Shown here piece by piece: positions 24,343 through 38,405 of a DNA stretch of 38,594 nt (its first letter is position 1; each line of letters starts with the position of its first letter). This DNA is from Gemmatimonadaceae bacterium. Lineage in GTDB: Bacteria > Gemmatimonadota > Gemmatimonadetes > Gemmatimonadales > Gemmatimonadaceae. Where the stretch lies: positions 1 to 38,594 of the forward strand of contig JAICLH010000006.1 in the NCBI GenBank assembly GCA_025927495.1. The letters run 5' to 3'. Both the position numbers and the translations under genes were made by a program. The notes below the pieces were generated by a model that was given only the letters and a program-made list of their open reading frames with translations, made no database searches and was not told the DNA's origin.

Positions 24343-24815
24343 GGCCGCGACTCCCCGCCGCCGGCCGCGGCCGCGCGCCTAACGGCCGCGACGATGCGCG
24401 GATACGTGCCGCAGCGACAGACGTTGGTCTCCAGCCCCTGCGCGATCTCGCCCGCGGTCGGCTGCGGATTCGCGCGCAGCAGCGCCACGCCGGCCATGAT
24501 CATCCCCGGCGTGCAGTACGCGCACTGGAACGCCTGCTCGTCGAGAAAAGCCTGCTGCACCGGATGCAGATGGCCGTCGTGCTCCAGTCCTTCGATGGTG
24601 GTGATCTTCGCACCTGCCGCCGACTGCGCCGGTACCGTGCACGACGCCACCGCGTGCGAGCCGACAAGGACCATGCACGCGCCGCACCGGCCCTCGCCGC
24701 ATCCGTATTTCGTTCCCGTAAGGCCGAGCTCGTCTCGCAGCACGTCGAGCAGCGTCTGTGATGGATCGATGTCCACCGAGTGGCGACTGCCGTTTACGTC
24801 GAGGTCGATGCGCAT
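24339..24815 (-). CDS. [2Fe-2S] small subunit of the molybdenum hydroxylase
   Basis: A 158-residue two-cluster iron-sulfur subunit. The plant-type cluster uses C39, C44, C47 and C59 (GCGEGRCGAC). The second cluster uses C98, C101, C133 and C135 (CAYCTPGM, CRCGTYPRI). It passes electrons from the Mo site to the acceptor. The ATG at 24815 follows GAGACGAGG; a longer upstream frame runs into the inverted-repeat element and is spurious. It has no signal peptide, so it would be carried out with the Tat-tagged large subunit, as usual for IorA-type enzymes. Confidence 0.94.
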   Translation of the reverse strand: MRIDLDVNGSRHSVDIDPSQTLLDVLRDELGLTGTKYGCGEGRCGACMVLVGSHAVASCTVPAQSAAGAKITTIEGLEHDGHLHPVQQAFLDEQAFQCAYCTPGMIMAGVALLRANPQPTAGEIAQGLETNVCRCGTYPRIVAAVRRAAAAGGGESRP

Positions 24816-24910
24816 GCCTCGTCTCTGGTGTGGTCCGCTATCGCAAGCATATCGCGTGCACCGCGGGCGCCGCAACGCGGCGCAGTTTCGGATCCCAGGA
24901 GTCAGAGACA

Positions 24911-25160
24911 AGAGGGAAGCGGGAAGCGCTCGCTGCGCTCGCTGGGGGAAGCGCTGCGCTTGGGGAAGCGGCGGCGACGCCGCCTGAGGGAGCGGAAGGA
25001 CATCAGTTGCCTCTGGATGGAGGGTGCCGCATCGCGGGACACGCGCATGGCACTCTCGTCGCGCAGACCATCGATGTTGTTCCACTCCCTCAGGCGGCGT
25101 CGCCGCCGCTTCCCCCAGCGCAGCGCTTCCCCAAGCGAGCGCCAGCGAGCGCTTCCCTCT
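24911..25160. repeat. Palindromic dispersed repeat element, complete copy
   Basis: Two nearly identical arms of about 80 bp (24911-24996 and 25081-25160) lie as inverted repeats around an 84-bp spacer, inside a 405-bp gene-free gap (24816-25220). Each arm is built from GGGGAAGCG units, each followed by a short self-complementary run such as AAGCGCTGCGCTT or GGCGGCGACGCCGCC. The whole could fold into one long cruciform or RNA hairpin with side hairpins. A third arm with matching spacer sequence occurs at 38485-38594, so this is a repeat family. No transposase is present; Arg/Ser-rich frames across it look spurious. It could be a non-autonomous mobile element, an RNA gene or a structural repeat. 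Confidence 0.85.
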
Positions 25161-25220
25161 TCCCCCGGGGTGCCCGCGATCAGCAACGCACACGCGGGCT
25201 CCTAACCCGGCGGCCTGCCG

Positions 25221-25700
25221 TTAGGCGGCGAGCGTCGCGCCGCAGGCCGGACAATAGCGGGCGCCGGGCTCGGTGACGCTCGCCCCGCACCGCGCGCACG
25301 CGCCGGCCAGGAAGCGCCCGCACGTCGAGCAGTAGAGCGCGTCCGCCTCGGGACGCGGGCCGCACGTCGCGCACGACCGCCGCGGCGCCCGATACGCCAG
25401 GATCATCGCCTCGACGTCCGCATCGCTCACGCTCGACGGCGCGGCGTCCCGCGCCCGGAGCGCCGCGAGCGCGTCCCGCGTGTACTCGGCTTTCAGCGTC
25501 GCGTAGTCGGAGTCGGAGAGCTTTCCCGTTTCGCGATCGAACTCGACCTCGCGCAGTGCCGCGATCGCATCCACCGGTGCATCGGGCGCCGACTGCCGCG
25601 GCACCGTGACGTCCGGCGTGCGCGGCGCGACGAACAACGGGACGAGCACGAATGCCAGCGCCGCGAGCGCCAGCACCGTTCCGAGCACGAGAGCGATCAT
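25221..25700 (-). CDS. CcmI-like protein with C-terminal zinc ribbons
   Basis: A 159-residue protein. A membrane helix (residues 1-25) is followed by EVEFDRETGKLSDSDYATLKAEY, which resembles the start of CcmI/CycH cytochrome c biogenesis proteins. Instead of the usual TPR domain, it ends with two short zinc-ribbon-like units (CATCGPRP with CSTCG; CARCG with CPACG). CcmI normally presents apocytochrome c to CcmH/CcmF. The start overlaps the ccmH stop (ATGA). The stop TAA is part of a GTTAGGC heptamer. Function is assigned from operon position and the N-terminal motif; the zinc-ribbon part is of unknown use. Confidence 0.72.
   Translation of the reverse strand: MIALVLGTVLALAALAFVLVPLFVAPRTPDVTVPRQSAPDAPVDAIAALREVEFDRETGKLSDSDYATLKAEYTRDALAALRARDAAPSSVSDADVEAMILAYRAPRRSCATCGPRPEADALYCSTCGRFLAGACARCGASVTEPGARYCPACGATLAA

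Positions 25701-36364: not shown

Positions 36365-38405
<2,041 letters not shown>

Follow-up and report, generated by a model that had tools for sequence, protein, structure and literature searches.

A palindrome of 250 bp stands alone in the window, the whole stretch of 38,594 nucleotides analysed here from the MAG of a soil Gemmatimonadaceae bacterium, and its symmetry raises the question of what kind of element it is and how it came to lie there. From the letters alone, the initial annotation had proposed a mobile element, a foldable RNA or DNA, or a nucleoid or termination site. The two inverted arms that it described are present (Table 1), and the element does lie in a 405-bp gap, between the genes ending at 24815 and 25221. 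The 84 bp separating the arms were also found, but they are not a plain spacer: they form an imperfect inverted repeat themselves (GGAAGGACATCAG.../...TCGATGTTGTTCC), which makes a single palindrome of all 250 bp. Each arm had further been described as holding three mini-palindromes. This is clearly so for the second (AAGCGCTGCGCTT) and third (GGCGGCGACGCCGCC), whereas the first (GCGCTCGCTGCGCTCGCT) is nearer to a tandem duplication in the window copy and a true hairpin in diverged copies. The palindrome is far beyond chance. The predicted RNA fold of the element reaches -228.1 kcal/mol on the + strand (z -19.6) and -226.8 kcal/mol on the - strand (z -19.3), with 0 of 200 shuffles as good in either case. 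No T-run of an intrinsic terminator follows either arm, and no Rfam family matched the window at gathering score.

Table 1. Features of the palindromic element and of a second copy in the window (TIR, terminal inverted repeat)
Feature	Position	Strand	
Left arm, GGGAA-anchored unit array	24914-24993	+	
Left arm, two period-7 units GGGAAGC/GGGAAGC	24914-24927	+	
Left arm, unit 1 AAGCGCTCGCTGCGCTCGCT	24924-24943	+	
Left arm, unit 2 AAGCGCTGCGCTT	24949-24961	+	
Left arm, unit 3 AAGCGGCGGCGACGCCGCCTGA	24966-24987	+	
Interior, imperfect inverted repeat (GGAAGGACATCAG ... GATGTTGTTCC), conserved among copies	24994-25083	+	
Right arm, inverted unit array (CCCTCAGGCGGCGTCGCCGCCGCTT CCCC CAGCGCAGCGCTT CCCC AAGCGAGCGCCAGCGAGCGCTT CCCTCTTCCC)	25084-25164	-	
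Degenerate outer TIR (GGAGCCCGCGTGTGCGTTGCTGATCGCGG), 6 mismatches to the family TIR	25174-25202	-	
TA adjoining the right TIR on its outer side, one putative copy of the TA target duplication	25203-25204	.	
Left outer sequence ending CAGTTTCGGATCCCAGGAGTCAGAGACAAGA, like the AGAGACAAGA linker of other copies with a decayed TIR	24882-24913	+	
Second element copy, cut by the contig end	38478-38594	+	

A search of the genome and of relatives, as the initial annotation had advised, returned many dispersed copies. The palindrome is one copy of a dispersed repeat family and not a lone pair of arms. The family occupies about 100 places in the 3.55-Mb MAG (G000, about 75% complete), some 40 of them close copies; BLAST with the element gave 82 matches, which are both orientations of about 42 places, and full copies are mostly 86-93% identical. 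A scan for the unit pattern matched 134-145 times in G000 and 32 times in a second genome of the same genus (G001), with 0-2 matches for the reversed-pattern control. Among 59 relatives only G001 carries the family in number, the others having none or one pattern match, and the same scan found four further genomes of the genus to be without it. Among named genomes, the exact pattern was found only in the Gemmatimonadaceae MAG LS_FP_2_bin.53. Phage and plasmid collections searched with the element gave no DNA match. The arm is thus neither restricted to two copies nor absent from relatives, and the spacer holds no protein; a protein gene in the interior was ruled out by indels of 1-4 bp among copies and by the lack of a conserved reading frame. 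The second copy in the window begins about 70 bp past the stop codon (38403-38405) of the gene at 36486-38405.

The arms are arrays of units. Inside elements, GGGAA words are spaced by 26, 7 or 17 bp (124, 121 and 117 times, respectively), and outside elements such spacings hardly ever occur. The 7-bp units read GGGAATG, GGGAAGA or GGGAATA, and the 17- and 26-bp units hold small hairpins. In diverged copies the order of the units is kept although their sequences are quite different, and a given unit is as a rule self-complementary, with a counterpart in the opposite arm; the fold z-scores of these copies range from -6 to -22. The covariation check that had been proposed for the fold was borne out: across 27 aligned copies, 11 pairs have both partners altered, where shuffles give 4.1, with 0 of 500 shuffles reaching 11 and a slid alignment giving 0-7. 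The word GGGGAAGCG occurs five times in the window, four of them within the element; its reading as an uptake signal was ruled out, the word being largely confined to elements.

Elements lie close to gene 3' ends. In about 1 Mb of G000 contigs that were picked for holding matches and annotated with a home-made gene caller, elements come within 60 nt of 72 of the 88 gene 3' ends that face them, compared with 12 of 53 gene 5' ends. Distances to stop codons on the 3' side peak at 28-36 nt because a young subfamily has TIRs of about 30 bp at its outer edges, and this outer repeat usually begins right after TA. A putative role at transcript 3' ends would be compatible with these positions.

The young TIR subfamily is MITE-like. 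TA adjoins 44 of its 53 TIR edges, in 38 cases as CTA/G, and in 15 of the 53 this TA is that of a TAG stop codon; the target is usually CTAG and often the TA of a TAG stop. Two empty sites agree with this. At one locus (L166) the relative G005 has a single CTAG, the stop of the upstream gene, where G000 reads CTAG-element-CTAG. At the copy on contig C26, where G000 has the element between two TA, the end of gene Y reads GAGCTGTAA or GAGCTGTAG in relatives. A TIR-less element of 190 bp (L142, 4478) lies between a stop and a start codon in both G000 and G001, and the same genes abut in G004 and G005. The ends and target duplications that the initial annotation proposed to define by aligning copies are seen in the TIR subfamily; TIR-less copies such as this one show no clear target duplication, and the TIR of the window copy is degenerate. 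Three small elements (L091, 1501-1650; L095, 751-1100; L104, 43-400) have a similar outer TIR (GCGCGTCTGAG..) and a different interior (AAAAGGACGAAGG..GGGGAGTACCTC...), and apparently form a second MITE family.

The window locus itself combines two copies. From the left arm through the interior it resembles a copy that ends contig C109, with 81 bp identical and 98% identity over 184 bp; the C109 copy has the interior of the window element and an arm that pairs with the left arm of that element. The right flank fits the copy on contig C26 and not that on C109, and the other half of the putative TA duplication of the window copy is found on C26, at the stop codon of gene Y. Similarity of the window to relatives ends at 24881. 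The genes that flank the element are not neighbours in G001, G002, G004 or G005; each has another partner in G001, G004 and G005, with G003 agreeing for the right-hand gene, and in G000 each of these partner genes adjoins an element that lies at the end of its contig (C109 or C26). By these matches, two element copies are fused in the window copy. The fusion is most likely an assembly misjoin, since the occurrence of the same interior on both contigs is not expected from a simple crossover; a mixed population is a possible source. The window contig (C266) thus probably joins two unlinked loci through the element, in the gap 24815-25221, and gene order across this gap is not to be trusted. Many contigs of the MAG, that of the window included, terminate within a copy. 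Such palindromes are an assembly trap, in that they break and misjoin MAG contigs. Perfect inverted flanks at one contig start (L011) were set aside as an assembly fold-back.

One copy of the family encloses a gene. On contig C209 (L155, 6780-7411), arms of GGGAAGCGG-style units surround a PF05635 gene, the cassette starting directly at a TAG stop. The gene (L155, 6881-7252) matches PF05635 with an E-value of 1.7e-34 and TIGR02436 above its cut-off, and belongs to a four-helix-bundle family. The gene whose start adjoins the cassette is presumably an agmatine deiminase, judging by its N-terminal motif. Similar arrangements are found on plasmids of Gemmatirosa, cyanobacteria and Azospirillum, where 16 of 18 PF05635-like genes lie between inverted short-repeat arrays, compared with 4 of 58 neighbouring genes (Fisher p 6e-11); most of the set comes from cyanobacteria and its 18 genes are therefore only partly independent, and the 58 controls include neighbours of the same cassettes. 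In all 16 array-bounded genes (16/16) the G-richer arm is upstream. The repeat units of these plasmid cassettes include GGGAACA, GGGAGTA and TCAGAAG, and the cassettes are enclosed by other genes, such as the pairs cas6/cas4 and cas10/cmr3. We infer that the window element may be an ORF-less derivative of such a PF05635 cassette, because array type, polarity and position are shared with the cassettes and the unit style recurs around the gene in the same genome. The link rests on one ORF-bearing copy, found in about 1 Mb of the 3.55-Mb genome, and this copy may have arisen by chance, one element having inserted into another.

To our knowledge, no role outside 23S rRNA has been assigned to PF05635, a common family, and no origin has been established for the short G-rich tandem repeats and nested palindromes present in many bacterial genomes. 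A link between them would offer a testable explanation of both. PF05635 genes outside rRNA (S23/IVP, Avd-like) might be the coding members of a widespread mobile class bounded by inverted G-rich arrays, with the heptamers of Nostoc and Xanthomonas and the palindromes of this genus as their non-coding descendants, mobilised by the four-helix-bundle protein or by partners of it. This broader proposal is tentative, and its chances are judged to be somewhat short of even. No paper linking PF05635 to inverted short-repeat arrays was found in the literature, and the text of the heptamer study (PMC4692102) contains no occurrence of 'S23'. Two side observations concern the plasmid cassettes. Three of them (L291, L295 and L302) lie in CRISPR operons, as cas6-IVP-cas4 twice and as cas10-IVP-cmr3, and two of these have inverted arrays around them; the occurrence of PF05635 genes within cas operons has been noted before (PMC3936711). 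Two plasmids of Nostoc sp. ATCC 53789 (L299 and L303) carry PF05635 cassettes with different units in adjacent gaps of seemingly the same gene cluster, which suggests independent insertions.

Several known systems share some of these features, and none of those found combines them all. The 23S rRNA IVS with an S23p/PF05635 ORF, for example that of Coxiella burnetii, shares the ORF family, the long-stem terminal inverted repeats and a selfish character, and is known to be excised by RNase III (PMC4990558). However, the IVS lies inside 23S rRNA and has simple arms, whereas the present elements are intergenic at stop codons, have arms made of GGGAA-unit arrays and are mostly ORF-less. Correia/NEMIS, RUP and ERIC (PMC2229807) are likewise short, palindromic, non-autonomous and intergenic and have TA ends, as a subset of the copies here does; RUP has been linked to IS630-Spn1 (PMC2229807). 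The present elements differ from these in their size of 250-330 bp, in two nested levels of symmetry, in TA/TIR ends that are confined to a subfamily, in their frequent position exactly in TAG stop codons and in an ORF-bearing relative that carries PF05635. Period-7 units of the GGGAA type in intergenic regions are also known as heptameric G-rich repeats (GGGAATC in Xanthomonas, GGGGA(T/C)T in Nostoc; PMC4692102) and cyanobacterial STRR. The heptamer repeats were described as direct tandem arrays and studied as G-quadruplexes, in contrast to the inverted arrays of 7-, 17- and 26-bp units with internal hairpins found here. REP/BIME/REPIN elements have extragenic palindromic units and mosaics of inverted units in common with the family, but here the architecture is different, no Y1/RAYT transposase was found and a subset has TA-flanked TIRs.

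Among the options first offered, a mobile element is strongly supported by the many dispersed copies, the empty site in a relative and the TA-flanked terminal repeats; a foldable RNA or DNA is supported by predicted fold energy and paired changes, and nothing was found in support of a nucleoid site. The explanation that we consider probable, by a modest degree, is a mobile non-coding palindromic repeat composed of two inverted GGGAA arrays and a short interior, an ORF-less derivative of a PF05635 cassette that would form a hairpin past the stop codon. It builds on dispersal, the lack of the insertions in relatives wherever sites were comparable, stop-codon targeting, TA-flanked TIRs in a subfamily and conserved pairing. 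The inverted GGGAA arrays would be of the same kind as those bounding PF05635 (23S-rRNA-IVS/S23, Avd-like) genes. Copies would spread in trans as non-autonomous elements, the TIR subfamily probably moved by an IS630/Tc1-type transposase. A DDE_3 search of G000 (75% complete) for such an enzyme with matching ends gave one degraded fragment without these TIRs (L162, 10241-10660, on contig C238), the only one found in the genome. In the transcript of the upstream gene, the element is predicted to fold into a hairpin of about 110 bp just past the stop codon. By analogy with the 23S IVS and with Correia/ERIC, RNase III would probably cut this hairpin, and it would form a structure at the mRNA 3' end; insertion past a stop codon may thereby be tolerable. 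A repeat that uses the TA of CTAG in the stop codon as its target leaves the gene intact at each insertion.

The TIRs, the TA at 44 of 53 edges, the CTAG preference and the dispersed young copies would all suit an ordinary MITE of the IS630/Tc1-mariner type, comparable to Correia/NEMIS, RUP and ERIC, whose termini are also TA (PMC2229807). The GGGAA hairpin arrays would then be mere internal sequence and the PF05635 copy a coincidence. This is unlikely but deserves to be taken seriously. It leaves aside that many copies with the same arrays have neither a TIR nor room for one, lying 0-10 nt from stop codons, that single-arm arrays without an inverted partner occur (L157, 10326-10401; L117, 10712-10758), and that arrays surround PF05635 genes in unrelated bacteria. 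Movement by a REP-associated tyrosine (Y1/RAYT) transposase, as for BIME/REPIN elements, could account for short palindromic units in inverted order that are extragenic and beside stop codons, but is very improbable: PF01797 was not found in G000 (75% complete) in a search whose control matched in five genomes, the units form 3+3 inverted arrays with a fixed interior and not REP pairs, and the TIR copies have TA at their edges.

The main observation that simple insertion of a whole element does not explain is a locus on contig C157 (L142, 13969-14214). In G000, and in part in G001, element arms stand there on both sides of a T-run terminator (AAGAACCTCAATGGC..GCCATTGAGGTTCTTTTT). The terminator is conserved in G001, G004 and G005 and is older than the arms. 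G004 and G005 also have a GCCTAAC/GTTAGGC pair around it, and G005 already carries a GGGAAGC-like unit. The locus would fit palindromes growing in place where genes end, through template switching in replication (quasipalindrome correction), with the products kept as bidirectional terminators or mRNA 3'-end structures and immobile except for the TIR subfamily. Arms that match within a copy while units differ between copies, and positions that hug stop codons, point the same way. Nevertheless, growth in place is improbable as a general account, more so than the MITE explanation, since the 190-bp element at L142 4478 is cleanly present or absent and near-identical interiors in dozens of copies require dispersal.

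The word GTTAGGC is also abundant by itself. This non-palindromic heptamer occurs 1303 times in 1.0 Mb of G000 (1.3 per kb), equally on both strands, compared with 6, 12 and 20 occurrences of ATTAGGC, CTTAGGC and TTTAGGC, respectively. It lies within genes in 92% of cases, mostly in one reading frame; one example is found at 25219-25226 of the window (cgttaggcgg). The word is dense in all samples of the same genus (0.6-1.8 per kb) and nearly absent from other genera. It resembles a dispersed word of the DNA-uptake or Chi-like type.
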